DNA from: Coptis chinensis
Lineage: Eukaryota > Streptophyta > Magnoliopsida > Ranunculales > Ranunculaceae
Assembly (NCBI GenBank): GCA_015680905.1
Contig: CM027378.1
Span: forward strand, 60,475,501 to 60,539,500
Direction: 5' to 3'
DNA length: 64,000 bases
The notes beneath the pieces are model-generated. The model was not told the DNA's origin. It ran no database searches and worked only from the letters and a program-made list of their open reading frames with translations. Below are positions 24,054 to 56,323 of the stretch, one piece after another (the first letter of the stretch is position 1; each line of letters begins with the position of its first letter). A program made the translations under genes and the position numbers.

Positions 24054-24068
24054 TTAAAAAATATTTGT

Positions 24069-25502: not shown

Positions 25503-25678
25503 GTCATTTGAGCTCTCCTTCCTTCTCTGAACTCATACTGTAGGCAGTGTAGGATTTTACCAGAAAATGAATAAAGCTTGAACTTTGTTCGGATAAGCGA
25601 GGGAAACTGAGAAAGTTTTAACTAAAACAGGTAATAAAAGGAGCACTGGATCGCAGACTTAACTTAACTACCGTTAGT

Positions 25679-25792
25679 ACTAATCACCTTAACAAAGCAC
25701 GTAAACATTACTAACTCTTATTTACTATAAATATAATTGGTCTAAATGTAATATTATTATGAGATTAAAATTACAATTTTGGGCTCTTATCA
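25679..25792 (-). mobile_element. Family-A LTR, 5' end part (right of LINE)
   Basis: This is the first ~114 bases of the LTR on the minus strand, from TGATAAGAGCCC at 25792. It is collinear with 480-586 and with 61867-61985. It continues the LTR interrupted at 15030. Confidence 0.8.
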
Positions 25793-26096
25793 GTAATGTT
25801 AGGAGAGTTGTGACATTGAGAGATAGAGAGAAACCAAGAAGAAGAATGGAGAAGAATAGAGGCTTGAATAATTAAGTTATAGATAGAGAGATATTGATTA
25901 GGGTTAGAGTTATTGTTCTCTTCCCAAAATTACATATTTATACTAACCTACCTTGGGTGTGAAGTAACCCAAAACATTAGAATAGAAACTACTAGATATG
26001 GGAATAAAAACTACTAGATAAGGATGAGTTTGACTTATAGTCCACACTTATAGAAATGTGGGACTTTATATATGTCAATTACCTCCTACTCTAATA
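25793..26096 (-). mobile_element. 3' LTR of the copia element
   Basis: The inner edge is set by the polypurine tract. The outer edge lacks the first ~20 bases seen in the other LTR (TGTTAAATTCCATG...), as expected if a gypsy element inserted near that end. It keeps the intact Helitron target site ATTTA^TACTA at 25936-25945. Confidence 0.75.
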
Positions 26097-26825
26097 CTCC
26101 CCCTCAAGCTGTAATGCAGCGAATTATGCAAATTACAGTTTGAAGTGCAGAAAGAAAATATAAGAATACAGCTCCCCCTTTCATAGAGAACTGTCTTTAG
26201 TGGAAGAAATGTTGTCAGTGTAGGCAATGGCTTAACCTGAATACTGAAGTTGTACCACAGGCACAAACTGGAAATATGAGTGCAGTTTAGGCGTGACTGC
26301 AACCTGAGATTGAGATGAATTCTAAATAGTGCAGTGATGGCATGACTACAACCTGAGAGATTAATATTGAATAGTGCAATGATGATGTGACTGCAACCTG
26401 AGAGATGAATAGAAAGCTCATGATTTTCAGCCAAAGAGCTCAACAAGAGATAGTAATAGTCAATGAAACACCTGAGTACCGGGCACCACTACGGCATAAA
26501 AGGAATCAAAACTTGAAAAGCTAAACCATCAACGACAACAACATATAATAAACTCCTCAATAAGAAGGCTAAAACATAAAGCCGTTGAAACACCATAGAA
26601 CTCAGAACCATGACATTAAAGGAAATCAAACTCTTACAAATGAAAGAACTTATCAACCAACTAATAATCAAGAATTCTACTAAATCATATTAGTTGAGAC
26701 GAGGAGAAACTGCTAAAGAATATGGAAAACTGGACCTGAATACCTGAAGTGAGGGGGCACATGCCCTCTGATTTGCCTTTGGGAAGGGGTGCATGCCCTC
26801 AAATTAGAACTAACCGGTTGACTTT

Positions 26826-27508: not shown

Positions 27509-27521
27509 CGCTTTGATACCA
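27509..27521 (-). promoter_or_regulatory. Copia primer-binding site
   Basis: The minus strand reads TGGTATCAAAGCG, close to the TGGTATCAGAGC used by plant copia elements to pair with initiator tRNA-Met. It directly abuts the LTR end at 27522. Confidence 0.8.
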
Positions 27522-27685
27522 TGTTAAATTCCATGTTAGCAGTAATGCTAGGAGAGTTGTGACATTGAGAGATGGAGAGAAACCAAGAAGAAGAATATAG
27601 GCTTGAATAATTAGGTTATTAAGAGAGAGAGAGAGATATTGATTAGGGTTAGAGTTATTGTTCTTTATCTAGAGTTACATATTTA
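27522..27685 (-). mobile_element. 5' LTR of the copia element, interrupted by a Helitron
   Basis: It matches 25791-25940 almost throughout (AGGAGAGTTGTGACATTGAG and so on), with a purine block of GA repeats. It stops exactly at ACATATTTA (27677-27685), where the Helitron CTAG begins. The rest of this LTR (TACTAACCTACC...) is not seen again in the window. Confidence 0.8.
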
Positions 27686-27696
27686 CTAGCTATTAA

Positions 27697-27715
27697 GCCC
27701 GACCTATGGCCGGGC
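27697..27715 (-). other. Helitron 3' hairpin
   Basis: GCCCGACCTATGGCCGGGC on the plus strand: an 8-bp stem with one mismatch and a 3-base loop, 7 bases from the CTAG end. In Helitrons this hairpin helps end rolling-circle replication. Confidence 0.88.
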
Positions 27716-27851
27716 ATGCTACCTTGATAGTCCAATATCTGCTTGAATAAATAATAAATAGTCCAAGTAAAGCCCATTAGATAGATTTATTTAATATTAG
27801 TAACTTTATCGAACTTGAAATCCCCAAATCTCTTGGACTTATTTTTGTTGT

Positions 27852-28050
27852 TTAATAATAGAATTTTGTTTGAAGTTATGCGAAGATTATATTGCGACTA
27901 TTTACAATGTAAAACTATACTTATTTTTTAGATTTGTTCAATGCATGCTTGTTTTTTAATAATAGAATTTTGATTGAAGTTATGTGAAATTGTTCAATGA
28001 AGCAAAGATGATATTGCGACTATTTTCAATGCAAAACTATACTTGAACTA
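27852..28050. repeat. Diverged tandem duplication inside the Helitron end
   Basis: TTTAATAATAGAATTTTG, GAAGTTATG, ATATTGCGACTATTT and AAAACTATACTT occur in the same order at 27852-27926 and again at 27955-28046. The second copy has an insertion of about 15 bases. Confidence 0.75.
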
Positions 28051-28304
28051 TGTTATTTTTAAGATTTGTTCAATACATTTATATCAAATTATTTTATTTT
28101 AATTTATTTGTTTTTTTTTTAATGTGGGTTGTATACAAATGTGGACTTAAGTCATAAGCCTATTTGGTAATCTGTAATATAGACCAAATTGACGCAAACA
28201 GTCCAACTTTATCACTTAGGCCCATAATGCACTTCTTAGGGCTACAGTGCATCTTAGACATACCCATTTAATTGTGGTTGAGTCAAATTTTTTAATTAAA
28301 ATGT

Positions 28305-31300
28305 TGATTGGAACTATAAAGTTCGTATTAACCAACCGAACTATTATTTATCTGATACTATTTATCAACGTATGTGGAGTTTATAGTGAAAACAAATAGC
28401 GTATCTAAGAAAAAAAATGTACGGACAACGTGAAAAGCCCAAAGTCTTCTAATTATGTATGTATTTTAAGAAAACATAATTTTTGGGCCATAGTCGTGTC
28501 CTTGGTCAGAGCATTATTTATTAAGATCTTTTTGTTCATGAATAAACTTGCACTTAAATTACATACTAAATAGTTAAGTTGTGATGATGTATGCATGTAT
28601 AAACTTGCATCCAAAGTCTTCTAATTATGTATATATTTTACAAAAGCCCAAATTTTGGCCCATAGTAGTGTCCTTGGTCAGAGTATTAATTATTAATAAC
28701 TTTTTGTTCATGTATAAATTTTCACAGGAGTTTATAGTGAAAACGAACAACGTATCCAGCAAAAAAAATGTACGAACAACGTGAAAAGCCCAAAGACTTG
28801 TAATTCTGTATATATTTTACAAAATCCCAAACTTTGGCCCATAGTCATATCCTTGGTCAGAGTATTATTTATTAAGAATTTTTTGTTCATGTATAAACTT
28901 GCACTTACTGATAAGTGCTCAAAAAGTGCTATTTAACCCTCGATTATGCCTCTTGTTTAGCCATCTTAGTGGACTAATAGTGTTTGTAAGTTATGTTTTA
29001 TGATTCTACAGGTGAAAGAGAGAGTTTTGTGGAATATTAGAGAAAAAAGGGTAAAACGGAGCAATTCAGAGCATTAAGGATCACATGGGAAGCCCGTGGA
29101 CAATCATGGGGAAGACCAAGGAATTGGAGCTATTAAATATGCGACTTGGACCTATTTTAAAGCCTATTTGGAAGCCCAAGGCCAAAGGATTCATTGCTTG
29201 GAGCAAAGCCCGCAAAAGAGGATAGAAGGATAGAGTAGAAGAGACAAAATCGGCTAATGCGCCCGATGCATGGATCGAAAGGCCCGTGACGATTTATCGC
29301 GCCCGAGAGACGATGCATAAAATGCCCGCGACGCACGGATCGGATTAATCGTAGCCAATTTTTTCTTAGTTTTGGAGACGAAGTTGGACTCTGAAAGAAG
29401 TCTATTTGTATTAGGAAATAAATGACGGTTTGGAATGCTTCTAGAGCTCATTGTAACCTCTATAAATAGAGGACCTAAGTGCCTCACGTAATTGGCCAAT
29501 TCACTTATATTCTTGTCTCCAGAACTTGAGGCAGAGAGAGATTAATAATAAAAGATCGATTTTAACTAGCCGAGTCTTAATAAATTAGTCTTTCTAGTCT
29601 TATGTTCTTCGACTTTTCTCCTTCTTGTTCTTCGTGTTCTTCCTTCTTTATGGAAGACTAATCTTCTCCTTCAAGGGAGGAGATGAAGCCAGTGCTTAAG
29701 GTTTAATGATTCTTCTGGTTCATGGTGTTCTTCAATCAGGTTAGTTCTTTATGTTTTTAGTTATTAGTTCCATTGCCCACACCAGGGGATGGAAGTATAG
29801 AATAGGATTTATATTTTGCAATATTAATATCATGCTAGTGTTCTTTACTTTTCTTCTAGTAGAATAGTTCTTTAGAGTTAGGGAAGTATTCTTTGTGTTG
29901 CCTTAGAAGGGGTAGCTCAGGGAGTGGCTGCCTAAGGGAAGTATTCTTTGTGTTTGCCTTAAGTGGTGATTCATTGAATGGCCGCCCTGTTAGGAAGTAC
30001 TCTTTGATGTTGCACTTGGTAATACATTGAATGGCTGCCCGAGCTTACATAAAAGGAAAGAAGATATTAATAGCAAAAACATAGGAACAACCTTAAGTAG
30101 AGTTAATTGTTAACGATGTTTCATCCAAGAGGGCATCGACACTCGCTCGATTGCCTAATTGTGGTCTACTTGTAAGAACAACCATGAAGCAGAAGGTCAT
30201 AGATTAAAAGTATTGGTGGATTCTAATCTCTTAAATTCCCAATCTTATAAATTCTCAATAGTTTAGTTTAGTATTAGAATCTATAATCTCTACAATCATA
30301 CTTTTTAATCCCTTAAATCCCCTTTCCAGTCATGTCCTCCACATAACATACACTTAAAAGTGGAACAATAACCTACTCATCCCTTACTTATTGAGAGATA
30401 ATTAGGTTTTGATACGCTTCTATTTTGTTCAACGACCATACACCATCTACATACACAAAAAGAGGCTGGTCACTTACATACTGAGTCGTTAAGTTGTGAT
30501 AGAAGAAGAATTAACGAATTGGAACGATAAAATTTGTATTAACCGAACTATTATTTATCTTCTACTATTTATCAACATTAGTGGAGTTTATAGTGAAAAC
30601 GAATAGCGTATGCTACAAAAAAATATGTACGGACAACGTGAAAAGCCCAAAGTCTTCTAATTATGTATATATTTTACAAAAGCCCAAACTTTGGCCCATA
30701 GTTGTGTCCTTGGTCAGAGTATTATTTATTAAGAACTTTTTGTTCATGTAAAAACTTGCACTTACATACTAAATCGTTAAGTTGTGATGGAAGAATAATC
30801 AACTAATTGGACTGATAAAATATTTCTTAACCGAACTATTATTTATTTTCTACTATTTATCAACGTATATGGAGTTTATAGTAAAAACGAACAGTGTATT
30901 CAGCAAAAAAAATGTACGAACGACGTGAAAAGCCCAAAGTCTTCGAATTATGTATGTATTTTATAAAAGCCCAAAGTCTTCGAATTATGTATGTATTTTA
31001 TAAAAGCCCAAACTTTGGCCCATAGTCCTGTCCTTGGTCAGAGTATTATTTATTAAGAACTTTTTGTTCATGTATAAACCGGCACTTTATCGAGTTTATA
31101 GTGAAAATGCACAATGTATCCAACAACAAAAAATGTATGAACAACGTCAAAAGCCCAAAGTCTTCTACTTATGTATGTATATTACGAAAGCCAAAACTTT
31201 GGCCCATAGTCGTGTCCTTTGTCAGAGTATTATTTATTAAGAACTTTTTGTTCATGTATAAATTTGCACGTGAGTTTATATTAAAAATGAACAGCGTATC

Positions 31301-34300
31301 CAGCAAAAAAATGTACGAACAATGTAAAAAGCCCAAAGACTTGTAATTATGTATGTATTTTACGAAAGCCTAAACTTTGGTCCATAGTCGTGTCCTTGGT
31401 TAGAGTATTATTTATTAAAAACTTGTTGTTCATGTATAAACTTGCACTTACATACTAAGTCGTTAAATTGTGATAGAAGAAGAATCAACAAATTGGAAGG
31501 ATAAAATTCGTATTAACCGAACTATTATTGATCTGCAATTATTTATCAATATATGTGGAGTTTATACTGAAAACGAACAGCGTATGCAGAAAAAAAATGT
31601 ACAAACAACGTCAAAAGCCCAAAGTCTTCTAATTATGTATGTATTTCACAAACGCCAAAACAATGACCCATAGTCGTGTCCTTGGTGAGACCGTCAAAGT
31701 ATTATTTATTAAGAATTTTTTGTTCATGTAAAAACTAGCACTTACATACTGAATCGTTAAGTTGTGATATAAGAATAATCAACAAATTGGAACTATAAAA
31801 TTCGTATTAACCGAACAACTATTTATCAACATATATGGAGTTTATAGTAAAAACGAACAACGAATCCATGAAAAAATTTTTACGAAAAACGTCAAAAGCC
31901 CAAAGTCTTCTAATTATGTATGTATTTTACAAAAACCCAAATTTTGGCCCATAGTCGTGTCCTTGGTCAGAGTATTACTTATTAAGAACTCTTTGTTCAT
32001 GTATAAACTTACACTTACATAATGAGTCGTTAAGTTGTGATAAAAGAAAAATCAACGAATTTGAACGAAAAAATTCGTATTAACCGAACAATTATTTATC
32101 TGCTAATATTTATCAACATATGTGAAGTTTATAGTGAAAACGAATAGTGTATGCAGCAAAAAAAATATACGAACAACCTGAAACGCCCAAAGTCTTCTAA
32201 TTTTGCATGTATTTAAAAAAGCCCAAACTTTGGCCCATAGTCATGTCCATGGTCAGAGTATTATTTATTAAGAATTTTTTATTTACGTAAAAACTTTCAC
32301 TTACATACTGAATTATTCAGTTATAATGGAAGAAATATCAACGAATTGGAACGATACAATTCCTATTAATAGAACAATAATTTATCTACGATTATTTATC
32401 AACGTATATGGGGTTTATAGAAAAAACGAGCAATATATCAAGCAAAAAAAATGTACGAACAACGTCAAAAGCCCAAAGTCTTCTAATTATGTTTGTATTT
32501 TATAAAAGCAAAAACTTTGGCCCATAGTCGTGTCCTTGGTCAGAGTATTATTTATGAAGAACTTTTTGTTCATGTAAAAACTTGTATTAGAGTTTAAAGT
32601 GAAAACGCATAGTGTATCTAGCAAAAAAAATTTACGAACAAAGTCAAAAGCCCAAAGTATTCTAGTTATGTATTTATTTTACGAAACCCCAAACTTTGGC
32701 TCGTAGTCGTGTCTTTAGTCAGAGTATTATTTATTAAGAACTTTTTGTTCATATATAAATTTGCACATTAGTTTATATTGAAAATGAATTGCGTATACAG
32801 CAAAAAAAATGTACGAACAACGTAAAAGGCCAAAAGACTTGTAATTATGTATGCATTTTATGAAATCCCGAAGTTAGGCCCATAGTCATGTCCTTGACCA
32901 GAGTATCATTTATTAAGAACTTCTTGTACATGTATAAACTTGCACTTACATACTGAGTTGTTAAGTTGTGATAGAAGAAGAATCAACGAATTGGATCGTT
33001 AAAATTCGTATTAACCGAACTATTATTGAAATGCTATTATTTATCAACATATGTGGAGTTTATAATGCAAACGAACAACGTATGCAGCAAAAAAAATATG
33101 TACGAACAACGAGAAAAGCCCAAAGTCTTCTAATTATGTAAGTATTTTACAAAATCCCAAACTTTGGCCCATAGTCGTGTCCTTCGTCAGACCGTCAGAG
33201 TATTATTTATTAAGAACTTTTTGTTCAAGTAAAAACTTGCACTTACATACTGAATCGTTAAGTTGTGATAGAAGAATAATCGACGAATTGGAATGATAAA
33301 ATTCGTATTAACCGAACTACTATTTATCAACGTATATGGAGTTTATAGTAAAAATGAATAGCGAATCCATCAAAAAAATTTACTAAAAACGTCAAAAGTC
33401 CAAAGTCTTCTAATTATGTATGTATTTTACAAAAGCCCAAACTTTGGCAAATAGTCGTTTCCTTGGTAAGAGTATTATTTATTAAGAACTTTTTTTCATG
33501 TACAAACTTACACTTACATACTGAGTCGTTAAGTTGTGATAGAAGAAGAATCAACGAATTTGAATGATAAAATTCGTTTTAACTGAATTATTAGTTATAT
33601 GCTATTATTTATCAACATATGTGGAGTTTACAGAGAAAACGAACAACGTATGCAGCAAAAAAAAAATGTACGAACAACGTGAAAAACCCAAAGTCTTCTA
33701 ATTATATATGTATTTTACAAAAGCCCAAACTTTGGGCCATAGTCGTGTCCTTGGTCAGACCGTCAGAGTATTATTTATTCATAACTTTTTGTTCATAAAA
33801 AAACTTGCACTTACATATTGAATCATTTAGTTGTGATAGAAGAATAATCAACGAATTGGAACGATAAAATTCGTATTAACCGTACTACTATTTATCAACG
33901 TATATGGAGTTTATAGTAAACACATATAGCGAATCTATCTAAAAAAATTTACGAAAAACGTCAAAAGCCTTCTAATTATGTATGTATTTTACAAAAGCCC
34001 AAACTTTGGCAAATAGTCGTGTCCTTAGTTAGAGTATTATTTATTAATAATTTTTTGTTCATGTATAAACTTACACTTACATACTGAGTCGTTAAGTTGT
34101 GATAGAAGATGATTCAACTAATTGGAACGATAAAATTCGTATTAACCAAACTATTAGTAATATCCAATTATTTTTCAACATATGTGGAGTTTACTGTGAA
34201 AACGAACAGCGTAAGCAGCAAAAAAAAATACGAGCAACGTAAAAAGCCCAAAGTCTTCTAATTATGTATGTATTTTGCAAAACCCGAAACTTTAGCCCGT

Positions 34301-37300
34301 AGTTATGTCTTTGGTCAGACCGTCAGAGTATTATTTATTAAAAACTTTTCGTTCATGTAAATACTTGCACTTACATACTGAATCGTTAAGTTGTGATAGA
34401 AGAATAATCGACTAATTCAAACGATATAATTCGTATTAACTGAACTACTATTTATCTGCTACTATTCATCAACGTCTACGGAGTTTATAGTAAAAACGAA
34501 TAGCGTATCCATCAAAAAAAATTTATGAAAAACGTCTAAAGCCAGAAGTCTTCCAATTATGTATGTATTTTACAAAATCCCAAACTTTATGCCATAGTCG
34601 TGTCCTTGGTCAGATTATTATTTATTGAAAACTTTTTGTTCATGTATAAACTTACACATACATACTGAGTCGTTAAGTTGTGATAGAAGAAGAATCATTG
34701 AATTGGAACGATAAAATTTGTATTAACCGAACTTTTATTTATCTGCTATTATTTATCAAAATATGTGAAAACTAATAGTGTATGCAGCAAAAAAAATGTA
34801 CAAACAACCTGAAAATCCCATAGTCTTCTAATTATGTATGCATTTTACAAAATCCCAAATTTTGGCCCATAGTCGTGTCCTTGGTCAGAGTATTATTTAT
34901 TAAAATAAAAATTCATGTAAAAACTTGCACTTCCATACTGAATCGTTAAGTTGTAATGGAAGAATAATCAACGAATTGGAACGAAAAAATTCGCATTAAC
35001 CGAACTATTATTTATTTCCTATTATTTATCAACGTATAAGGAGTTTAAAGTAAAAACGAACAGCGTATCCTGCAAAAAAAATGAACGAACAACGTCAAAA
35101 GCTCAAATTTTTCTAATCATGTTTGTATTTTATAAAAGCCCAAACTTTGGCCCAAAGTCATGTCCTTGGTCAGAGTATTATTTATTATGAACTTTTTGTT
35201 TATGAATAAAATTGCACTGGAGTTTATAGTGAAAATGCACAGTGGATCCAGCAAAAAAAATTTACGAACAAAGTCAAAAGCCCAAAGTATTCTAATTATG
35301 TATGTATATTACGAAAGCCCAAACTTTGGCGCGTAGTCGTGTCTTTAGTTAGAGTATTATTTATTAAAAACTTTTTGTTCATTTATAAATTTTCACATAA
35401 GTTTATATTGAAAACAAACTGCGTATCCAGCAAAAAAAATGTACGTACAACGTAAAAGGCCCAAAGACTTGTAATTATATATGTATTTTATGAAAGCCCA
35501 AACTTAGGTCTATAGTCGTGTCCCTGGTCAGAGTATTGTTTATTGAGAACTTCTTGTTCATGTATAAAGTTGCACTTACATACTGAGTCGTTAAGTTGTG
35601 ATAGAAGAAGAATCAACAAATTGGAACGATAAAATTCGTATTAACTGAACTATTATTGATATATTATTATTTATCAACATATGTGGAGTTTATAGTAAAA
35701 ACGAATAGCGTATGCAGCAAAAAAAAATTTACGAACAACGTGGAAAGCCCAAAGTCTTCTAATTATGTATGTATTTTACAAAAGCCCAAACTTTGGCCCA
35801 AAGTCGTGTCTTCGGTCAGACCGTCAGAGTATTATTTATTAAGAACTTTTTGTTCATGTAAAAACATGCACTTACAAACTGAATCGTTAAGTTGTGATAG
35901 AAGAATAATCAACGAATTGGAACGATAAAATTCGTATTAACCGAACTACTATTTATCTGCTACTATTTGTCAACGTATATAGAGTTTATAGTAAAAACGA
36001 ATAGCGAATCCGTCAAAAAAAAATTACGAAAAACGTCAAAAGCCCAAAGTCTTCTAATTATGTATGTATTTTATAAAAGCCCAAACTTTAACAAATAATC
36101 CTGTCCTTGGTCAAAGTATTATTTATTAAGAACTTTTTGTTCATGTATAAACTTACACTTACATACTGAGTCGTTAAGTTGTGATAGAAGAAGAATCAAC
36201 TAATTGGAACGATAAAATTCGTATCAACCGAACTATTAGTAATATGCTATTATTTATCAACATATGTCGAGTTTACTGTGAAAACGAACAGCGTATGCAG
36301 CAAAAAAAAAGTACGAACGACGTGAAAAGCCCAAGTCTTCTAATTACGTATGTATTTTACAAAAGCCCAAACTTTGGTCTATAGTCGTGTCCTTGGTCAG
36401 ACCGTCAGAGTATTATTTATTAAGAACTTTTTGTTCATGTAAAAACTTGCACTTACATACTGAATCGTTAAGTTGTGATAGAAGAATAATCAACGAATTT
36501 GAACGATAAAATTTGTATTAATCGAACTACTATTTATCTGCTACTATTTATCAACGTATATGGAGTTTATAGTAAAAATGAATAGCGAATCTATCAAAAA
36601 AAATTTAAGAAAAACGTCAAAAGCCCAAAGTCGTCTAATTATGTATGTATTTTACAAAAGCCCAAACTTTGGCAAATAGTTATGTCTTTGGTCAGAGTAT
36701 TATTTATTAAGAACTTTTTGTTCATTTATATACTTACATTTACATACTGACTCGTTAAGTTGTAATAGAAGAAGAATCAACTAATTGGAACGATAAAATT
36801 CGTATTATCTGAACTATTAGTAATATCCTATTATTTATCAACATATGTGGAGTTTACTGTGAAAATGAACAGCGTACGCAGCAAAAAAAAAATGTACGAA
36901 CAACGTGAAAAGCCCAAAGTCTTCTAATTATGTATGTATTTTACAAAAGCCCAAACTTTGGCCCATAGTCGTGTGCTGGGTCAGACAGTCAGTGTATTAT
37001 TTATTAAGAACTTTTTGTTCATGTAAAAACTTGCACTTACATACTGAATCGTTAAGTTGTGATAGAAGAATAATCAACCAATTCAAATGATATAATTCGT
37101 ATTAACTGAACTACTATTTATCTGCTACTATTTATGAACATCTACGGAGTTTATAGTAAAAACGAATAGCGTATCGAACAAAAACAATTTATGAAAAACG
37201 TCGAAAGCCAAAAGTTTTCCAATTATGTATGTATTTTACAAAATCCCAAACTTTGGCCCATAGTCGTGTCCTTGGTTAGAGTATTATTTATTAAGAACTT

Positions 37301-40300
37301 TTTTTCATGTATAAACTTGCACATACATACTGAGTCATTAAGTTGTGATAGAAGAAGAATCAATGAATTGGAACGATAAAATTTGTATTAATCGAATTAT
37401 TATTTATCTAGTACTATTTTCAAAATATGTGAAAACTAATAGTGTATGCAATAAAAAAAATGTACGAACAACCTAAAAATCCCAAAGTGTTCTAATTATG
37501 TATGTATTTTACAAAATCCCAAACTTTGGCTCATAGTCGTGTCCTTGGTCAGAGTATTATTTATTAAAAAAGAAATTCATGTAAAAACATGCACTTAAAT
37601 ATTGAATCGTTAAGCTGTGATAGAAGAATAATCAACGAATTGGAACTAAAAAATTTGAATTAACCGAACTATTATTTATTTACTATTATTTATCAACGTA
37701 TATGGAGTATATAGTAAAAACGAACAGCGTATCCAGCTAAAAAAAAGAATGAACAACATCAAAAGCTCAAAGTCTTCTAATTATGTTTGTATTTTATAAA
37801 AGCCCAAACTTTGGCCCATAGTCTTGTCCTTGGTCAGAGTATTATTTATTATGAACTTTTTGTTTATGGATAAAATTGCACTGGAGTTTATAGTGAAAAT
37901 GCACAGTGTATTCAGCAAAAAAAAAATTACGAACAAAGTCAAAAGCCCAAAGTATTATAATTATGTATGTATATTACGAAAGCCCAAACTTTGGCGCGTA
38001 GTCGTGTCTTTAGTCAGAGTATTATTTATTAAACACTTTTTGTTCATGTATAAATTTTCATATAAGTTTATATTGAAAACAAACTGCGTATCCAGCAAAA
38101 AAAATGTACGTACAACGTAAAATACCCAAAGACTTGTAATTATATATGTATTTTATGAAAGCGTAAACTTAGGTCTATAGTCATGTCCCAGGTCAGAGTA
38201 TTGTTTATTGAGAACTTCTTGTTCATGTATAAACTTGCAGTTACATACTGAGTCGTTAAGTTGTGATAAAAGAAGAATCAACGAATTTGAACGATAGAAT
38301 TCATATTAACTGAACTATTATTGATATGTTATTATTTATCAACATATGTGGAGTTTATTGTAAAAATGAATAGTGTATGCCGAAAAAAAAAATGTACGAA
38401 CAACGTGAAAAGCCCAAAAGTCTTCTAATTTTATATGTATTTTTCAAAAGCCAAAACTTTGTCCCATAGTTGTGTCTTTGGTCAGACCGTCAGAGTATTA
38501 TTTATTCAGAACTTTTTGTTCATGTAAAAACTTGCACTTATATACTGAATCGTTAAGTTGTGATAGAAGAATAATCAACGAATTGGAACGATAAAATACG
38601 TATTAACCGAACTGCTATTTATCTGCTACTATTTATCAACGTATATGGAGTTTATAGTAAAAACGAATAGCGAATCCATAAAAAAAAATTTACGAAAAAC
38701 GTAAAAAGCCCAAAGTCTTCTAATTATGTATGTATTTTACAAAAGCCCAAACTTTAACAAATAGTCGTGTCCTTGGTTAAAGTATTATTTACTAAGAACT
38801 TTTTGTTCATGTAGAAACTTACACTTACATACTGAGTCGTTAAGTTGTGATAGAAGAAGAATCATGTAATTGGAACGATAAAATTCGTATTAACCGAACT
38901 ATTATTAATATGCTATTATTTATCAACATATGTTGAGCTTACTGTGAAAACGAATAGCGTATGCAGCAAAAAAAATATACGAACAACGTGAAAAGCCCAA
39001 ACTTTGGCCTATAATCGTGTCCTTGGTCAGACCGTCAGAGTATTATTTATTAAGGACTTTTTGTTCATGTAAAAACTTGCCCTTAGAGACTGAATCATTA
39101 AGTTGTGATAGAAAAATAATCCACTAATTTAAACAATAAAATTCGTATTAATCGACCTACTACTTATCTGTTACTATATATCAATGTCTACGGAGTTAAT
39201 AGTAAAAACGAATAGCGTATCGATCAGAAAAAATTTATGAAAAATGTCGGAAGCCAAAAGTCTTTCAATTATGTATGTAATTTACAAAATCCCAAACTTT
39301 AGCCCATAGTCGTGTCCTTGGTCAGAGTATTATTTATTAAGAACTTTTTGTTCGTGTATAAACTTACACATACATACTGAGTCGTTAAGTTGTGATAGAA
39401 GAAGAATCAATGAATTGGAACGATAAAATTCGTATTAACCGAACTATTATTTATCTTCAAGTATTTATCAAAATATGTAAAGTTTATAGTGAAAACTAAT
39501 AGTGTATGCAGAAAAAAAAATGTACGGACATCCTGAAAAGCCCAAAGTCTTCTAATTATGTATGTATTTTGCAAAAAGCCAAACTTTGGCCCATTGTCGT
39601 GTCTTTGGTCAGAGTATTATTTATTAAAAAGAAATTTTCATTTAAAAACTTGCACTTACATACTGAATCGTTAATTTCTGATGGAAGAATAATCAACGAA
39701 TTGGGACGAAAAAATTTGCATTAACCGAACTATTATTTATTTACGATTATTTATCAACGTATATGGAGTTTATAGTAAAAACGAACAGCATATCCAGCAA
39801 AAAAAATGAACGAACAACGTCAAAAGCTCAAAGTCTTCTGATTATGTTTGTATTTTATAAAAGCCCAAACTTTGGCCCATAGTCGTGTCCTTGGTCAGAG
39901 CATTATTTATTATGAACTTTTTGTTTATGAATAAAATTGCACTGGAGTTTATAGTGAAAATGCACAGTGTATCCAAGAAAAAAAATTTACGAACAAAGTC
40001 AAAAGTCCAAAGTATTCTAATTATGTATGTATACTACGAAAGCCCAAACTTTGGCGCGTAGCCGTTTCTGTAGTCATAGTATTATTTATTAAAAACTTTT
40101 TGTTCATGTATAAATTTTCACATAAATTTATATTGAAAACGAACTGCGTATCCAGCAAAAAAAATGTACGTACAACGTAAAAGGCCTAAAGACTTGTAAT
40201 TATATATGTATTTTATGAAAGCCTAAAGTTAGGTCTATAGTCGTGTCCCTGGTTAGAGTATTGTTTATTGTGAACTTCTTGTTCATGTATAAACTTGCAC

Positions 40301-43300
40301 TTACATACTGAGTCGTTAAGTTGTGATAGAAGAAGAATCAACGAACTGGAACGATAAAATTCATATTAACTGAACTATTATTGATATGTTATTATTTATC
40401 AACATATGTGGAGTTTATAGTAAAAACGAATAGCGTATGCAGCAAAAAAAATGTACGAACAACGTGAAAAGCCCGAAGTCTTCTAATTATGTATGTATTT
40501 TACAAAAACCCAAACTTTGGCCCATAGTCATGTCTTTGGTCAGACCGTCAGAGTATTATTTATTAAGAACTTTTTGTTCATGTAAAAACTTACACTTACA
40601 TACTGAATCGTTAAGTTGTGATAGAAGTATAATCAACAAGTTGGAACGATAAAATTTGTATTAACCGAACTACTATTTATCTGCTGCTATTTATCAACGT
40701 ATATGGAGCTTATAATAAAAATGAATAGCGAATCCATCAAAAAAAATTTACAAAAAACTTCAAAAGCCCAAAGTCTTCTAATTATGTATGTATTTTACAA
40801 AAGCCCAAACTTTAACAAATAGTCGTATCCTTGGTCAAACTATTATTTATTAAGAACTTTTTCATCATGTAGAAACTTACACTTACATACTGAGTCGTTA
40901 AGTTGTGATAGAAGAAGAATCAACTAATTAGAACGATAAAATTCGTATTAACCGAACTGTTAGTAATATGCTATTATTTATCAACATATATGGAGTTTAC
41001 TGTGAAAACAAACAGCGTATGCAGCAAAAAAAATGTACGAACAACGTGAAAAGCCCAAAGTTTTTTAATTATGTACGTATTTTACAAAAGCCCAAACTTT
41101 GGCCCATAGTCGTGTCCTTGGTCAGACCGTCAGAGTATTATTTATTAAGAACTTTTTGTTCATGTAAAAACTTGCCCTTAGATACTGAATCGTTAAGTTG
41201 TGATAGAAGAATAATCAACTAATTCAAACGATATAATTTGTATTTAACGACCAACTATTTATCTGTTACTATATATCAATGTCTACGGAGTTTATAGTAA
41301 AAACGAATAGCGTATTCATCAAAAAAAAATTATGAAAAACGACAAAAACCAAAAGTTTTTCAAGTATGTATGTATTTTACAAAATCCCAAACTTTAGGCC
41401 ATAGTCGTGTCCTTGGTCGGAGTATTATTTATTAAATTTTTTTTCTTCTTGTATAAACTTACACATACATACTGAGTCGTTAAGTTGTGATAGAAGAAGA
41501 ATCAATGAATTGGAACGATAAAATTCTTATTAACCGAACTCTTATTTATCTGCTACTATTTATCAAAATATGTGAAGTTTATAGTGAAAACTAATTGTGT
41601 ATGTAGAAAAAAAAATGTACGAACAACCTGAAAAGCCCGAAGTCTTCTAATTATGTATGTATTTTGCAAAAACTCAAACTTTGGCCCATAGTAGTGTCTT
41701 TGGTCAGAGTATTATTTATTAAAAAGAAATTTTCATTTAAAAACTTGCAGTTACATACTGTATCGTTAATTTGTGATGGAAAAATAATCAATGAATTGGA
41801 ACGAAAAAATTCGCAATAACCGAACTATTATTTATTTACTATTATTTATCAACGTATATGGAGTTTATAGTAAAAATGAACAGCGTATCAAGCAAAAAAT
41901 ATGTACGAACAACGTGGAAAGCCCAAAGTCATCTAATTATGTATGTATTTCATAAAATCCCAAACTTTGGCCCATATTCGTGTCCTTGGTCAGAGTATTA
42001 TTTATTAAAAACATTTTGTTCATTTATAAACTTGCACTGGAGTTTATAGTGAAAACGCACAGTGTATCCAGCAAAAAAAATTTACGAACAAAGTCAAAAT
42101 CCCAAAGTATTCTAATTATGTATGTATATTATGAAAGCCCAAAATTTGGCGAGTAGTCGTGTCCTTAGTCAGAGTATTATTTATTAAAAACTTTTTGTTC
42201 ATGTATAAATTTTCACATGAGTTTATATTGAAAACAAATTGCGTATCCAGCAAAAAAAATGTACGTACAACGTAAAAGGCCCAAAGACTTATAATTATGT
42301 ATGTATTTTATGAAAGCCCAAACATAGGCCTATAGTCGTGTGCCTGGTCAGAAAATTGTTTATTGAGAACTTCTTGTTCATATATAAACTTGCACTTACA
42401 TACTGAGTCGTTAAGTTGTGATAGAAGAAGAATCAACGAATTGGAACGATAAAATTCGTATTAACCGAACTATTATTGATATATTATTTTTTATCAGCAT
42501 ATGTGGAGTTTATAGTAAAAACAAATAGCGTATGTAGCAAAAAAAATGTACAAACAACGTGAAAAGCCCAAAGTCTTCTAATTATGTATGTATTTTACAA
42601 AAACTTTGGCCCATAGTCATGTCCTAGGTCAGACCGTCAGAGTATTATTTATTAAGAACTTTTTGTTCAAGTAAAAACTTGCACTTACATACTGAATCAT
42701 TAAGTTATGATAGAAGAATAATCAACGAATTGGAATGATAAAATTCGTATTAACCGAACTACTATTTAACTGCTACTATTTATCAATGTCTACGGACTTT
42801 ATAGTAAAAATGAACAACGTATCCATAAAAAAAAATTTACAAAAAATGTCAAAAGCCAAAAGTCTTCTAATTATGTACGTATTTTATAAAAGCCCAATCT
42901 TTGGTTCATAGTCGTGTCCTTGGTCAGAGTATTATTTATTAACTTTTTGTTCATGTATAAACTTACACTTACATACTGAGTCGTTAAGTTGTGATAGAAG
43001 AAGAATCAATGAATTGTAACGATAAAATTCGTATTAGCCGAACTATTATTTATCTGCTACTATTTATCAACATATGTGAAGTTTATAGTGAAAACGATTA
43101 GTGTACGCAGCAAAAAAAAATGTATGAATAAATTGAAAGGTCCAAAGTTTCCTAATTATGTTTGTATCTTACAAAACCCTAAACTTTGGCCTAAAGTCGT
43201 GTCCTTGTTTAGAATATTACAAAACCCCAAACTTTAGCCCAAAGTCGTGTCCTTCATGTAAAAACTTGCACTTTAATACAGAATCGTTAAGTTGTAATGG

Positions 43301-46300
43301 AAAAATAATCAATGAATTGGAACGATAAAATTCGTATTAACCGAACTATTATTTATCAACGTATATGGAGTTTATAGTAAAAACGAACAGCGTATCCAGC
43401 AAAAAATATGTACGAACATCGTCAAAAACCCAAAGTATTCTAATTATGTTTGTATTTTATAAAAGCCCATACATTGGCTCATAGTCATGTCCTTCGTCAG
43501 AGTTTTATTTATTAAGAACTTTTTGTTCATGTATAAACTTGCACTGGAGTTTATAGGGAAGACGTACACTGTATCCAGCAAACAAAAAATTTGAACAAAG
43601 TCAAAAGTCCAAAGTATTTAAATTATGTATGTATATTACGAAAGCCCAAACTTTGGCCCGTAGTCGTGTCCTTCGTCAGAGTATTATTTATTAAGAACTT
43701 TTTGTTTATGTATAAATTTGCACATGAGTTTATATTGAAAATTAACTACGTATCCTGCAAAAATAATGCACGAACAACGTAAAAGGCCCAAAGACTTGTA
43801 ATTATTTATATATTTTATCAAAGCCCAAACTTAGGCCCATAATCATGTCCTTGGTCAGAGTAGTATTTATTAAAAATTTCTTGTTCATATATAAACTTGG
43901 ACATACATACTGAGTCATTAAGTTGTCATAGAAGAAGAATCAAAGAATTGGAACAAAAAGTTCTATTTAACCGAACTATTATTGGTATGCCATTATTTAT
44001 CAATATATGTGGAGTTTATAGTGAAAACAAACATCGTATGCAGCAAAAAAAATGTACAAACAACGTCAAAACCCAAAGTCTTCTAATTATGTATGTATTT
44101 TACAAAAGCCCAAATTTTGACCAATAGTCGAGTCCTTGGTCAGACCGTCAGAGTATTATTTATTAAGAACTTTTTATTCATGTAAAAACTTGCACTTACA
44201 TACTGAATCGTTAAGTTGTGAAGGAAGAATAATCAACGAATTGGAACGAAAAAATTCAAATTAACCGAACTATTATTTATCTATTATTATTTATCAACAT
44301 ATATGGAGTTTATAGTAAAAAAGAACAGCGTATCTAGAAAAAAATGTACGAACAACGTCAAGAACCCAAAGTCTTCTAATTATGTTTGTATTTTATAAAT
44401 GCCCAAACTTTGGCCCATAGTCGTGTCCTTGATCAGAGTATTATTTATTAAGAACTTTTTGTTTATTAATAAATTTGCACTGGAGTTTATTATGAAAACG
44501 TACAGTGTATCCAGCAAAAATAATTTACGAAAAAAGTTAAAAGCCCAAAGTATTTTAATTATGTATGTATATTACGAAAGCCCAAACTTTGGCCCGTAGT
44601 CGTGTCCTTAGTCAGAGTATTATTTATTAAGAACTTTTTGTTCATGTATAAATTTGCACATGAGTTTATATTAAAAACGAACTGCGTATCTAACAAAAAA
44701 AATGTATGAACAACGTAAAAGGCCCAAAGACTTGTAATTATGAATGTATTTTATGAAAGCCCAAACTTAGGCCCATAGTCGTGTCCTTGGTCAAAGTATT
44801 GTTTATTGAGAACTTCTTGTTCATTTAAAAACTTGCACTTACATACTGAGTCGTTAAGTTGTGATAGAAGAAGAATCAACGAATTGGAACGATAAAATTT
44901 GTATTAACCGAACTATTATTGATATGCTATTATTTATCAACATATGTGGAGTTTATAGTTAAAACGAATAGCGTATGCGTAAAAAAAAATGTACGAACAA
45001 CATGAAAAGCCCAAAGTCTTCTAATTATATATGTATTTTACAAAAGCCCAAACTTTGGCCTATAGTTGTGTCCTTGGTCAGACCGTCAGAGTATTATTTA
45101 TTAAAAACATTTTGTTCATGTAAAAACTTGCACTTACATACTGAATCGTGAAGTTGTGATAGAAGAATAATCAATGAATTGGAACGATAAAATTCGTATT
45201 AACCGAACTACTATTTATCTGCTACTATTTATCAACGTCTACAGAGTTTAAAGTAAAAACGAACAGCGTATCTATAAAAAAAAAATTACAAAAAACATCA
45301 AAAGCCTAAAGTCTTCTAATTATGTATGTATTTAACAATAACCCAAACTTTGGCCCATAGTAGTGTCCTTGGTCAGAGTATTATTTATTAAGAACTTTTT
45401 GTTCATGTTTAAACTTACACTAACATACTGAGTCGTTAAGTTGTGATAGAAAAAAAATCAACGAATTGTAACAACAAAATTTGTATTAACCGAACTATTA
45501 TTTATCTGCTACTATTTATCAACATATGTGATGTTTATAGTGAGAACGATTAGTGTACGCAACAAAAAAAATGTACAAATAACTTGAACAGCCCAAAGTC
45601 TTCTAATTATGTATGTATTTTATAAAAGCCTAAATTTTGGCCCAAAGTCGTGTCCTTGGTCAGAGTATTATTTATTTAGAATTTTTTGTGCATGTAAAAA
45701 CTTGCACTTTAATACTTAATCGTTAAGTTATGATGGAAGAATAATCAACGAATTGGAACGAGAAAATTCATATTAACCGAACTATTATTTAACTACTATT
45801 ATTTATCAACGTATATGGAGTTTATAGTAAAAACGAACAGCGTATCCAGCAAAAAAAATGTAAGAACAACGTCAAAATCTCAAAGTCTTCTAATTATGTT
45901 TGTATTTTATAAAAGCCCAAACTTTGGCCCATAGTCGTGTCCTTGGTCAGAGTATTATTTGTTAAGAATTTTTTGTTTATGAATAAATTTGCACTGGAGT
46001 TTATTATGAAAACGCACAGTGTATCCATCAAAAATAATTTACGAACAAAGTTAAATGCCCAAAGTATTTTAATTATGTATGTATATTAGAAAGCCCAAAC
46101 TTTGGCCCGTAGTCGTGTTCTTAGTCAGAGTATTATTTATTAATAACTTTTTGTTCATGTAGAAATTCGCACATGAGTTTATATTGAAAACGAACTGCGT
46201 ATCCAGAAAAAAAAATGTAAGAACAACGCAAAAGGCCCAAAGACTTGTAATTATGTATGTATTTTATGAAAGCCCAAACTTAGGCCCATAGTCGTGTCCT

Positions 46301-48570
46301 TGGTCAAAGTCTTGTTTATTGAGAACTTCTTGTTCATGTATAAACTTGCACTTACATACTGAGTCGTTAAGTTGTGATAGAAGAAAAATCAACGAATTGG
46401 AACGATAAAATTCGTATTAACCGAACTATTATTGATATGCTATTATTTATCAACATATGTGGAGTTTATAGTGAAAACGAACAGCGTATGCATCAAAAAA
46501 AATGTACGAACAACATGAAAAGCCCAAAGTCTTCTAATTATATATGTATTTTACAAAAGCCCAAATTTTGGCCCATAGTCGTGTCCTTTGTCTGACCGTC
46601 AGAGTATTATTTATTAAGAACATTTTGTTCATGTAAAAACTTGCACTTACATACTGAATCGTGAAGTTGTGATAGAAGAATAATCAACGAATTGGAACGA
46701 TAAAATTTGTATTAATCGAACTACTATTTATCTGCTACTATTTATCAACGTCTACGGAGTTTATAGTAAAAACGAACATCGTATCTATAAAAAAAAAATT
46801 ACGAAAAACGTCAAAAGCCAAAAGTGTTCTAATTTTGTATGTATTTTACAATAGCCCAAACTTTGGCCCATAGTCGTATGCTTGGTCAGAGTATTATTTA
46901 TTAAGAACTTTTTGTTCATGTTTAAACTTACACTAACATATTGAGTCGTTAAGTTGTGATAGAAAAAGAATCAACGAATTGTAACAACAAAATTTGTATT
47001 AACTGAACTATTATTTATCTGCTACTATTTATCAACATATGTGATCTTTATAGTGAGAACGATAATTGTACGCAGCAAAAAGAATGTACGAATAACCTGA
47101 AAAGCCCAAAGTCTTCTAATTATGTATGTATTTTACAAAAGCCCAAACTTTGGCCCAAAGTCGTGTCCTTGGTCAAAGTATTATTTATTTAGAATTTTTT
47201 GTTCATATAATACTTAATCGTTAAGTTGTGATGGAAGAATAATCAAGGAATTGGAACGATAAAATTCATATTAACCGAACTATTATTTATCTGCTATTAT
47301 TTATCAGCGTATATGGAATTTACAGTAAAAACGAACAGCGTATCCAACAAAAAAAATGTAAGAACAACGTCAAAAGCCCAAAGTCTTCTAATTATGTTTG
47401 TATTTTATAAAAGCCCAAACTTTGGCCTATTGTCGTGTCCTTGGTCAGAGTATTATTTATTAAGAACTTTTTGTTTATGAATAAATTTGCACTGGAGTTT
47501 ATTATGAAAACGCACAGTGTATCCAACAAAAATAGTTTTCGAACAAACTTAAAAGCCCAAAGTATTTTAATTATGTATGTATATTAGAAAGCCCAAACTT
47601 TGGCTCGTAGTCGTGTTCTTTGTCAGAGTATTATTTATTAAGAACTTTTTGTTCATGTATAAATTTACACATGAGTTTATATTGAAAACGAACTGCGTTT
47701 CCAGCAAAAAAATGTACGAACAACGTAAAAGGCCCAAAGACGTGTAATTATGTATGTATTTTATGAAAGCCCAAACTTAGGCCCATAGTCGTGTCCTTGG
47801 TCTGAGTATTGTTTATTGAGAACTTCTTGTTCATGTATAAACTTGCACTTACATACTGAGTCGTTAAGTTGTGATAGAAGAAAAATCAACGAATTGTAAC
47901 GATAAAATTCGTATTAACCGAACTATTATTGATATGCTATAATTTATCAACATATGTGGAGTTTATAGTGAAAACAAACATCATATGCATAATAAAAAAA
48001 TGTACAAACAACATGAAAAGTCCAAAGTATTCTAATTATATATGTATTTTACAAAATCCCAAATTTTGGCCCATAGTCGTGTCCTTGGTCAGACCGTCAG
48101 AGTATTATTTATTAAGAACATTTTGTTCATGTAAAAACTTGCACTTACATACTAAATCGTTAAGTTGTGATAGAAGAATAATCAATGAATTGGAACGATA
48201 AAATTCGTATTAACCGAACTACTATTTATCTGCTACTATTTATCAACGTTTACGGAGTTTATAGTAAAAAATGAACAGCGTATCTATAAAAAAAAATTTG
48301 TGAAAAATGTCAAAAGTCAAAAGTCTTCTAATTATGTATGTATTTTACAATAGCCCAAACTTTGGCCCATAGTCGTGTCCTTGGTCAAAGTATTATTTAT
48401 TAAGAACTTTTTGTTCATGTTTAAACTTACACTAACATACGGAGTCATTAAGCTGTGATAGATGAAGAATCAAAAAATTGTAACGATAAAATTTGTATTA
48501 ACCGAACTATTATTTATCTGCTACTATTTATCAACATATGTGAAGTTTATAGTGAAAATGATTAGTGTAC
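28305..48570 (+). repeat. Satellite-like tandem array with higher-order structure
   Basis: About 18.7 kb of head-to-tail repeats all in one orientation (a solo LTR at 28909-30472 is excluded from that length). Full monomers are about 288 bp and share GAGTCGTTAAGTTGTGATAG, CGTATTAACCGAACTA, AAAGCCCAAAGTCTTC, CATAGTCGTGTCCTTGG and ATTTATTAAGAAC. Short monomers (~181 bp) lack about 105 bp, between TTGCAC and GAGTTTATA. Full monomers alternate in two types, one with the extra ACCGTCAG after TTGGTCAG. Short monomers come in pairs, and their spacing gives higher-order units of about 0.94 to 2.67 kb. No gene is present: the recurrent 60-110-residue open stretches are frame shadows of the repeat. The left end is in the Helitron, and the right end is cut by a gypsy LTR. 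Confidence 0.93.
28909..30472 (+). mobile_element. Solo LTR of gypsy family B inside the array
   Basis: It starts TGATAAGTGCTC and ends ...GGCTGGTCA. It is flanked on both sides by CTTAC (28904-28908 and 30473-30477), a 5-bp target duplication. Removing it and one CTTAC restores the satellite phrase TTGCACTTACATACTGAG. The 1564 bases are homologous to the inverted LTR at 48571-50162. No internal region is left, which is the usual outcome of LTR-LTR recombination. Confidence 0.93.
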
Positions 48571-50162
48571 TGACACTCGCTCTTTTTTGTGTGTGTAGAT
48601 GGTATATGGATGATGTAGATAGATGATGGTCGTTGAACAAAATAGAAGCGTATCAAAATCTAATTATCCCTCAATAAGTAAAGGATGAGTAAGGTATCGT
48701 TCCACTTTTAAGTGTATGTTATGTGGAGGACAGGACTAGGAAGGGGGTTTGAAGGATTAAAAACTATGATTATAGATATTATAGATTCTAATGCTAAACT
48801 AAACTAAACTAAACTATTGAGAATTTATAAGAAAGAGAATTCAAGAGATTAGAATCCACCAATACTTTTTATTCAATGACCTTTTGCTTCATGGTTATTC
48901 TCACAAGTAGACTACAATTAGGCAATCGAGTGAGTGTCGATGCCCTCTTGGACAAAACATCATTAACAAATAACTCTACTTAAGGTTATTCCTATGTTCA
49001 TGTTACTAGTATCTTCTTTCCTTTTATGTGAGCTTGGGCAGCTATTCAATGAATCACCATCTAAGGCAAACACAAGGAATACTTTCCTTACTCTAAAACA
49101 CTACACAACTAGAAGAAAAGTAGAGAATAATAGTATAATATTCAATTATAATAAATATAACCCTATTCTAGCATTATATTCAATTGCAATAAATAAAAGC
49201 ATGTCACTAGCAAATATTCAATTGCAATAAATAAAACCCTAAACTAGCATGATATTCGATTGTAATAAATAAAAACCTTAATCTATACTTCCATCCCCTG
49301 GTCTGGGAATTGAAACTAATAACTAAAAACATAAAGAACTAACCTGATTGAAGAACACCATGAACCAGAAGAATCATTAAACCTTAAGCACTGGCTTCAT
49401 CTCCTCCCTTGAATGAGAAGATTAGCCTTCCATAAAGAAGGAAGAACGAGAAGAAGAAGAGTCGAAGAACATAAGACTAGAAAAAACTAATTTATTAAGA
49501 CTCAGCTAGTTAAAACCGATCTTTTATTATTAATGTCTCTCTGCCTCAAGTTCTGGAGACAAGAATCTAAGTGAATTGGCAATTTACATGAGGCACTTAG
49601 GTCCTCTATTTATAGAGGTTACAATGAGCTCTAGAAGCATTCCAAACCGTCATTTGTTTCCTAATACAAATAAACTTCTTTCAGAGTCCAACTTCGTCTC
49701 CAAAACTGAGAAGAAATTGGCTATAGTGTCGATCAATGCGTCTGGACGCACTATTCATCCATCTCAGACGCATTCAATGCGTCTGGACGCTCGATCCATG
49801 CGTCCCAGACGCATAAGTCTATTTTGTCTCTTTTGCTCTATCCTTCTATCCTCTTTTGCGGGCTTTGGTCCAAGCAACGAGTCCTTTTGCCTTGGGCTTC
49901 CAAATAGGCTTTAAAATAGGTCCAAGTCGCATTTTTAATAGCTTCAATTCCTTGGCCTTCTCCATGATTGTCCACTGGCTTCCCATGTGATCATTAATGC
50001 TCCGAATTGCTCCATTTTATCCCTTTTTTTCTAATATTCTACAAAACTCTCTTTCTTACCTGTAGAATCTTAAAACATAACTTACAAACACTATTAGTCC
50101 ACTAAGATGGCTAAACAAGAGGCATAATCGAGGGTTAAATTGCACTTTTTGAGCACTTATCA
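48571..50162 (-). mobile_element. 3' LTR of family-B gypsy element
   Basis: 1592 bases bounded by TGACACTCGC (48571) and GCACTTATCA (50162), i.e. TGATAAGTGC...GTGTCA on the minus strand. A run of CTAAA units lies near 48793-48815. The GC-rich GCGTCTGGACGC motifs at 49730-49815 correspond to a strongly diverged GC-rich block in the solo LTR (29250-29345). The outer edge abuts the satellite array. Confidence 0.88.
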
Positions 50163-55788: not shown

Positions 55789-55790
55789 TT

Positions 55791-56308
55791 TGACACTCGC
55801 TCCTTTTTGTGTGTGTAGATGGTATATGGATGATGTAGATAGATGATGGTTGTTGAACAAAATAGAAGCGTATCAAAACCTAATTATCCCTCAATAAGTA
55901 AATGATGAGTAAGGTATCGTTCCACTTTTAAGTGTATGTTATGTGAAGGACAGGACTGGAAAGGGGGTTTGAGGGATTAAAAACTATGATTATAGATATT
56001 ATAGATTCTAATGCTAAACTAAACTAAACTAAACTAAACTAAAGTATTGAGAATTTATAAGAAAGAGAATTCAAGGGATTAGAATCCACCAATACTTTTT
56101 ATTCAATGACCTTTTGTTTCATGGTTGTTCTCACAAGTAGATTTCAATTAGGCAATCGAGCGAGTGTCGATGCCCTCTTGGACAAAACATCGTTAACAAA
56201 TAACTCTACTTAAGGTTTTTCCTATGTTCATGTTACTAGTATCTTCTTTCCTTTTATGTAAGCTTGGGCAGCTATTCAATGAATCACCATCTAAGGCAAA
56301 CACAAGGA
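55791..56308 (-). mobile_element. 5' LTR of family-B element, partial
   Basis: It is collinear with 48571-49085 at about 96.5% identity by eye. The CTAAA run has more units here than in the 3' LTR. The match stops within CACAAGGAAATAC, where the next gypsy element begins. The remaining ~1.07 kb of this LTR does not reappear in the window. Confidence 0.85.
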
Positions 56309-56323
56309 AATACAACATTTCCT

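Follow-up and report, generated by a model that had tools for sequence, protein, structure and literature searches.

An array of 74 satellite units with higher-order structure begins 619 bp inside the exact 3' terminus of a Helitron in Coptis chinensis, and this Helitron interrupts a long terminal repeat (LTR) whose divergence from its sister copy provides a clock for the insertion. The locus, found in a stretch of 64,000 nucleotides of contig CM027378.1 (the window), is a good one-sided case of the known partnership between satellites and Helitrons; birth of the satellite from the Helitron is not shown by this window. The comparison of sequence divergences leads us to favour, tentatively, the idea that the Helitron brought an array that was already diversified and that may then have grown in place by unequal exchange.

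Results

The Helitron end and the LTR that it broke comprise the following features.

25785..26110, minus strand: 3' LTR (left copy) of a presumably copia-like element, limits approximate (self-BLAST, alignment)
27524..27685, minus strand: rest of the sister 5' LTR, broken by the Helitron between A and T (self-BLAST, alignment)
27686..27715, minus strand: Helitron 3' terminus (sole match of the terminus scan in the window; fold; empty site)
27686..28304, minus strand: Helitron 3' segment of 619 bp between terminus and array, its similarity to the monomer undetectable

The earlier note had described the Helitron end as precise, and it is indeed exact to the base, with 619 bp separating it from the array. 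On the minus strand, a GC-rich hairpin of 19 nt (27697-27715; eight pairs, one of them G-T, and a loop of 3) is followed by 7 nt, by CTAG (27686-27689) and by a T outside the element, the last Helitron base being 27686. The distance of 11 nt from the end of the hairpin to the terminus lies within the range of the criterion used (a GC-rich hairpin of 16-20 nt, 10-15 nt before the 3' end), and the CTAG at 27689-27686 is of the CTRR form in which, according to the available text of PMC6591975, Helitron 3' ends terminate, mostly as CTAG. The terminus scan of the whole window gave this one match, against a mean of 0.1 and a maximum of 1 in 40 dinucleotide shuffles. Another hairpin-pattern match, in a GC-rich contig of the non-plant collections, lies in apparent coding sequence and was taken as chance. 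The Helitron 3' segment contains a diverged direct duplication (27845-28078), and the window holds no second copy of it (best match elsewhere, E 0.009 over 57 bases). None of the 26 stop-to-stop frames of at least 110 aa, some of them scanned within shorter limits, matched a Helitron replicase/helicase; the 5' part of the element lies beyond the window.

Self-BLAST pairs 25787-25940 with 27536-27685 as sister LTRs. A stretch resembling a PPT by the left LTR and a PBS-like sequence adjoining the right one, both read by eye, belong to an element (around 25785-27685) that we take to be copia-like. In the paralogous LTR, the empty A/T target site is intact between 25940 and 25941. For an insertion that splits A from T and duplicates no target bases, this shows the 3' side, the 5' side being beyond the window. 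The missing half of the broken host LTR was not found in 28305-64000, so that all of 27686-48570 lies inside the insertion unless there has been rearrangement. The proposal that the array is housed within a Helitron thus holds as far as adjacency goes, and the array is apparently inside by contiguity (broken LTR, empty site, missing LTR half); the Helitron is seen on one side of the array, with its 5' end out of view.

To the right of the Helitron segment, the array and the elements that interrupt it are arranged as follows.

28305..28908, plus strand: Helitron-proximal array edge, with partial, irregular and more diverged units
28909..30472, plus strand: solo LTR, gypsy-type, inside the array, with the target site duplication (TSD) CTTAC on both sides
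30473..48570, plus strand: main array of ten s1-started higher-order blocks, nine complete and the last one cut
48571..50165, minus strand: gypsy-type LTR cutting the array, right limit approximate (3' LTR of a minus-strand element)
55791..56309, minus strand: second LTR of the same gypsy-type element, truncated; no array units are seen between it and the window end

The tandem array at 28305-48570 is borne out, with head-to-tail units of 287/295 bp and 179 bp. It had been described as never leaving a single unit before being cut by an LTR at 48571. The cut is correctly placed; the continuity is broken by the solo LTR, which shares its gypsy-type family with the LTR at 48571, and the units come in two lengths. 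Because the solo LTR sits inside, the array sequence amounts to 18,702 bp and not 20.3 kb. Most long units measure 287-297 bp, and the 179-bp consensus is the 287-bp consensus minus 108 bp; both consensus sequences were built from 69 of the 74 units (48 long, 21 short), with five units of odd length excluded, and over-long segments of 560 and 573 bases were divided by hand at 275 and 285. On the right, the array is cut within a unit by the LTR starting TGACACTCG at 48571, and its true right edge is beyond the window. Elsewhere in the window, no match to the monomer was better than E 0.37, and no Rfam family reached its gathering score anywhere in the window.

On the left, the array matches the monomer consensus from 28307, directly after the Helitron segment, with nothing additional visible at the joint. 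This bears on the idea that a Helitron was truncated and its 3' end fused, through deletion or recombination, to a satellite array that had existed independently elsewhere, which would make the arrangement one-sided and accidental. Recombination with standalone arrays is one origin of one-sided arrays in the available parts of a review (PMC12628747) and of PMC8268682, and such a fusion would agree with the presence of Helitron sequence on one side of the array only, with the lack of similarity between Helitron segment and monomer, and with array classes older than the insertion (see below). It does not fit as well with a joint free of extra sequence, nor with Helitron-proximal units that are diverged and partial like those of a natural array edge, although an old fusion would give the same. 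We regard this origin as a serious alternative, though less likely than not. A false joining of the Helitron segment to a satellite contig has to be weighed as well, as long arrays are error-prone in assembly, but the edge units are partial and irregular, and the solo LTR with its intact TSD and the ordered blocks look real; an assembly artefact is therefore hardly to be expected.

The higher-order structure that had been suspected is real. Independently of any class labels, none of the 74 units has its direct neighbour as best match. Mean identity is 0.900 within class (330 pairs) versus 0.839 between direct neighbours (73 pairs), so that units resemble their counterparts a block away more closely than the units beside them, as is required of a higher-order repeat. 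The classes follow the order s1-s2-A-B-(C-B)-C-D-E-F, and the blocks, which vary in length (936, 1498-1514, 2061-2095 and 2630-2664 bp), all draw on these classes in this order. Knowing the class of one unit leaves 0.40 bits of conditional entropy for the class of the next; 1000 label shuffles averaged 2.36 bits and never fell below 1.98, a test that is only descriptive because the class seeds were picked after the identity table was known. When the units are grouped by average linkage without seeds (k=8), s1, s2 and D remain for the most part separate, and A/C/E and B/F fall together. The best match carries the same class label in 70 of the 74 units. Labels are weak near the Helitron, where the assigned class leads the second one by 0.011-0.023 in units 0-2 and by less than 0.01 in units 3, 5, 6, 7, 9 and 13.

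A derivation of the monomer from the Helitron segment was rejected, as the Smith-Waterman score of 27688-28304 (617 of the 619 bases of the segment) against the 287-bp consensus was equalled by 81 of 200 shuffles on the plus strand and by 22 of 200 on the minus strand. Helitron 5' ends carry a motif of the TCTMTAYTA type, which also has a 14-letter form. On both strands of the 287- and 179-bp consensus sequences, the best match to the TCTMTAYTA-type motif has 7 of 9 letters and is equalled by 264-472 of 500 shuffles; the 14-letter motif is at chance level in the two sequences (127-499 of 500). A hairpin followed by CTRR is absent from the 287-bp consensus. The unit stretch GCCCAAACTTTGGCCC, which resembles the terminal hairpin by eye, was dropped as a candidate relative because no CTRR follows it.

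These searches bear on the model of Xiong et al. (2016), as described in PMC12628747, PMC8268682 and PMC7348941, in which truncated Helitrons form a rolling-circle tandem, the units being Helitron 5' parts and one edge bearing the 3' end. A single 3' end does stand at one edge of the array, and the pattern has been described in plants (PMC12628747 and PMC7348941, in the portions available). Against this, the TCTMTAYTA-type 5' motif does not rise above chance in either consensus, a hairpin followed by CTRR is missing from the 287-bp one, and the graded local homogenisation described below is unlike the outcome of one burst. We judge this origin very improbable.

Mean K2P divergence is 0.175 between classes (2370 of 2371 pairs, one with fewer than 120 aligned sites having been dropped) and 0.109 within class (330 pairs); direct-neighbour units, compared without labels, average 0.183 (73 pairs). 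The host LTR pair has a K2P of 0.089 (95% 0.043-0.147), a clock based on 144 sites that takes LTR and satellite to evolve at equal rates. The within-class value is reached by 1083 of 5000 LTR bootstraps, and the value of about 0.135 for the closest pairs of classes (A-C and B-D) is reached by 269 of 5000. As the classes differ from one another about twice as much as the two host LTRs do, the class variants are probably older than this Helitron insertion, while the amplification of blocks can be contemporary with the insertion or later; both statements are drawn from sequence divergence. Fusion of an old standalone array to a Helitron end predicts the same clock result.

The clock also bears on the birth of the satellite in place, by tandem duplication of internal Helitron sequence after the insertion. 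Such a course agrees with the location of the array and with a within-class divergence that the age of the insertion could accommodate, but not readily with the between-class value, which only 13 of 5000 LTR bootstraps reach. Exchange within the array lowers divergence, so that this bias runs in the opposite direction. A faster satellite rate or conversion between the LTRs would inflate the apparent age of the classes. On balance, a birth in place appears improbable to us.

Divergence between copies of the same class increases with distance (Spearman 0.31, a value reached by 0 of 1000 position permutations), and it is higher for pairs with units 0-10 (K 0.126) than in the other three groups (0.105-0.110). 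Because nearby copies of a class are more alike, local unequal exchange fits better than one rolling-circle burst. The suggestion that a satellite had here been born from a rolling-circle transposon is therefore not supported: no Helitron sequence was detected in the monomer, the classes look older than the insertion, and homogenisation is graded and local.

Discussion

The reading that we prefer, that of the Helitron as carrier of the array, can be put as a sequence of events. A Helitron in minus-strand orientation entered a copia-like LTR at an A/T junction, as its terminus and the empty site show. Judging by the clock comparison and by contiguity, its body may have borne a short tandem array that was already diversified. 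After arrival, the array would have grown to at least 18.7 kb, presumably by repeated unequal exchange or by local duplication of blocks of several units. Such growth could account for the s1-to-F higher-order blocks of variable length and for their local homogenisation, a pattern that is plain in the array. The array was subsequently invaded by two LTR retrotransposons, of which one survives as a solo LTR and the other cuts away the right side, as the solo LTR and the cut at 48571 show. The Helitron would thus have been the vehicle and the landing place, but not the maker of the long array.

The comparisons that follow refer to the parts of the cited papers that were available. In the oyster Crassostrea gigas, arrays of Helitron-associated satellites likewise border conserved ends of Helitrons, in some cases at just one side. 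The longest element-associated array of Cg170/HindIII (CgiSat01) has 89 monomers of 164-166 bp (PMC8268682). Unlike CgiSat01, the array described here has mostly long units of 287-297 bp, a higher-order pattern, a plant host and a canonical Helitron terminus; the C. gigas case rests on recurring copies, ours on a single locus. The Cg_HINE elements, non-autonomous Helentrons, share satellite-like repeats with our locus, located centrally between the Helentron ends, in arrays that average 3.6 monomers (13 clusters) and reach 29.3 (PMC7492417); here there are 74 units, one end is seen, and the structure is that of a Helitron and not of a Helentron. DINE-TR1 and other Helitron-derived repeats of Drosophila offer a further likeness, as internal Helitron repeats grow into satellite arrays there (PMC9659126, PMC10783647), with genome-wide evidence in animals as opposed to one plant locus. 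Closest in host are the tandem truncated Helitrons of plant centromeres, whose units have repeated 5' ends (Xiong et al. 2016, as described in PMC12628747 and PMC7348941). They share with our locus a long plant tandem array with a single Helitron 3' end at its edge. They differ in that our monomer is without a recognisable Helitron end and, by the TCTMTAYTA-type motif, does not carry one 5' end per unit.

Literature searches for monomer strings and for the two unit lengths returned no paper, and among the papers listed in broader searches no plant paper describing the monomer was seen. Exact monomer patterns of 24 and 26 bases had 0 matches in the viral_contigs and genome_contigs collections, and blastn of two units (573 bases) gave no match among plasmids; plant DNA is not expected in any of these collections, so that these negatives carry no information on the plant.

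The locus bears on the question of how satellites originate and reach new sites. One edge of a long array that has an age structure of its own is fixed here to a base-exact terminus within a datable LTR, which allows a clear test of the order of ages (variants older than the insertion, amplification not), and each further copy in the source genome would lend itself to the same test. A bolder and, for now, unlikely idea is that a plant Helitron family carries this higher-order satellite as internal cargo and seeds it, already diversified, at new sites, where it grows into arrays of tens of kilobases. If this were true, Helitrons would disperse complete higher-order repeats rather than single monomers.

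The Helitron 3' terminus

Support for the Helitron 3' end proposed in the earlier note is now stronger than it was there. When both strands were scanned for GC-rich stems of 7-11 pairs with CTRRT following within 3-9 nt, one site only was returned in the window, at 27686, compared with a mean of 0.1 and a maximum of 1 in 40 shuffled windows. The minus-strand terminus, GCCCGGCCATAGGTCGGGC-TTAATAG-CTAG|T (last base 27686), agrees with the 3' features given in PMC6591975, namely a CTAG end, a 16-20-nt hairpin 10-15 nt upstream and an AT target. It is flanked by a copia-like LTR that is interrupted here; the sister LTR runs unbroken through the insertion point (TTTA|TACT, 25940|25941), with the empty site between A and T.

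The copia-like LTR pair that supplied the empty-site reference (25785-27685) has about 1.4 kb between its LTRs, and no Pfam match was obtained in its three frames of at least 110 aa. At 20930-25700 (approximate limits, minus strand) lies a decayed LINE-type element whose broken frames match endonuclease and reverse transcriptase.

To the right of the terminus lie the following features.

27686-28304, minus strand: 3' segment of the Helitron
28305-48570: satellite array of tandem units
28909-30472: solo LTR of 1,564 bp inside the satellite, with a CTTAC TSD at both ends
48571-56309, minus strand: gypsy-type element whose LTR cuts the array at 48571

The missing half of the interrupted LTR (sister 25941-26110) could not be located in 28305-64000 (best E 0.69), and its exact pattern has a single occurrence, at 25941. 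By contiguity, the array therefore sits in the Helitron insertion, barring deletion or fusion. No 5' end of the Helitron was located within the window. Within the 3' segment, 27845-28078 holds two direct copies of a stretch of about 102-130 bp, which are 72% alike and do not match the satellite monomer.

Structure of the satellite array

An ungapped anchor scan divided the array, 18,702 bp of sequence proper, into 72 segments, two of them double, giving 74 units. Aligning 48 long units gave a consensus of 287 bp, and aligning 21 short units gave one of 179 bp, five odd-length units being excluded from both; removing 108 bp from the long consensus yields the short one. The monomer is absent elsewhere in the window (best E 0.37 outside the array). 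The note's picture of an array that keeps to the same unit throughout needs one correction, as the solo LTR breaks it. A perfect 37-bp tandem duplication within one unit (30928-31012) is perhaps a recent small slippage event.

The solo LTR and the LTR at 48571 belong to one family and run in opposite directions (K2P divergence, K, 0.089 over 1444 sites). The gypsy-type element's own LTR pair gives K 0.034 (509 sites); the second LTR of this pair is cut short at 56309, with other sequence beyond. The element matches gag (59.1 bits, frame 53796-55238) and, slightly under the cutoff, protease; the scanned frames gave no polymerase match. In the right flank, 57371-57787 and 59033-59412 are inverted copies of each other, about 380-420 bp long and 82% alike. 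Three related repeat copies of about 450-580 bp, 77-82% alike, lie at 7-584, 14580-15028 and 61869-62447, the last inverted relative to the others.

The units fall into eight variant classes (s1, s2 and A-F); class assignment has small margins close to the Helitron and for the block at 31037. The array starts at the left with A B C A F. Ten blocks follow, each opening s1 s2 A; of these, nine run in full to F, and the tenth is interrupted in E by the LTR at 48571.

Complete blocks of the array
s1-s2-A-B-E-F: four blocks, 1,498-1,514 bp
s1-s2-A-B-C-B-C-D-E-F: two blocks, 2,630 and 2,664 bp
s1-s2-A-B-C-D-E-F: two blocks, 2,061 and 2,095 bp
s1-s2-A-F: one block, 936 bp

Class-order entropy is 0.40 bits versus at least 1.98 in label shuffles, a test that is descriptive rather than independent because the classes were defined after the identity table had been viewed. 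In a label-free comparison, the direct neighbour was the best match for none of the 74 units. Mean identity was 0.900 for units of the same class, 0.845 for units of different classes and 0.839 for adjacent units. The highest block-to-block identity occurs among blocks close together (0.937-0.947 for those at 44432, 45946 and 47444; 0.926-0.932 for those at 35169, 37833 and 39894), and units of one class diverge more the farther apart they lie (Spearman 0.31, a value reached in 0 of 1000 permutations). This pattern is what unequal exchange ordinarily leaves in a higher-order satellite. Since A, C and E are mutually similar, as are B and D, with F nearest B, an older two-unit period probably underlies the array.

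Origin of the array

The proposal that the satellite was born from the Helitron is unsupported, with four results against it. The Helitron segment has no similarity to the monomer beyond chance. The satellite unit carries nothing above chance resembling the Helitron 5' motif, and the long unit contains no hairpin with CTRR, in which they differ from the truncated-Helitron tandems described in plants. The other two results are the class divergence given below and the graded local homogenisation seen in the amplification.

The LTR pair holding the Helitron gives K 0.089 (95% 0.043-0.147), a clock of 144 sites that assumes equal rates and is open to conversion between the LTRs. Classes differ by 0.175 and direct neighbours by 0.183, roughly double that value, and 13 of 5000 LTR bootstraps reach 0.175. 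The least diverged class pairs (0.135) are reached by 269 of 5000 and so are not firmly excluded. Within-class divergence (0.109, reached by 1083 of 5000) fits amplification around or after the Helitron insertion.

Most likely, the Helitron brought a short array, already diversified beforehand, which then grew at the landing locus. A later fusion between the Helitron end and a standalone array would account for the same observations and is a plausible alternative. As for the probable order of events, the copia-like element would have inserted first and the Helitron would then have entered its 5' LTR. Next, in either order, would have come growth of the array and the first gypsy-family insertion (the later solo LTR), before the gypsy element inserted at 48571 and more sequence was inserted or joined at 56309.

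For oyster satellites, PMC8268682 and the review PMC12628747 discuss arrays with a Helitron on one side only and propose aberrant rolling-circle replication and recombination with standalone arrays as origins. The longest element-associated array of oyster CgiSat01 has 89 monomers of 164-166 bp (PMC8268682), so the array of 74 units here is large but has a parallel. Among the papers listed by a literature search that covered mostly open-access work, no plant case of a higher-order satellite beside a Helitron terminus was noticed.

Birth of the satellite from a rolling-circle transposon is not shown. The array beside the Helitron end belongs to a known type of satellite-Helitron association, and as a real, well-defined feature it merits a genome-wide check.
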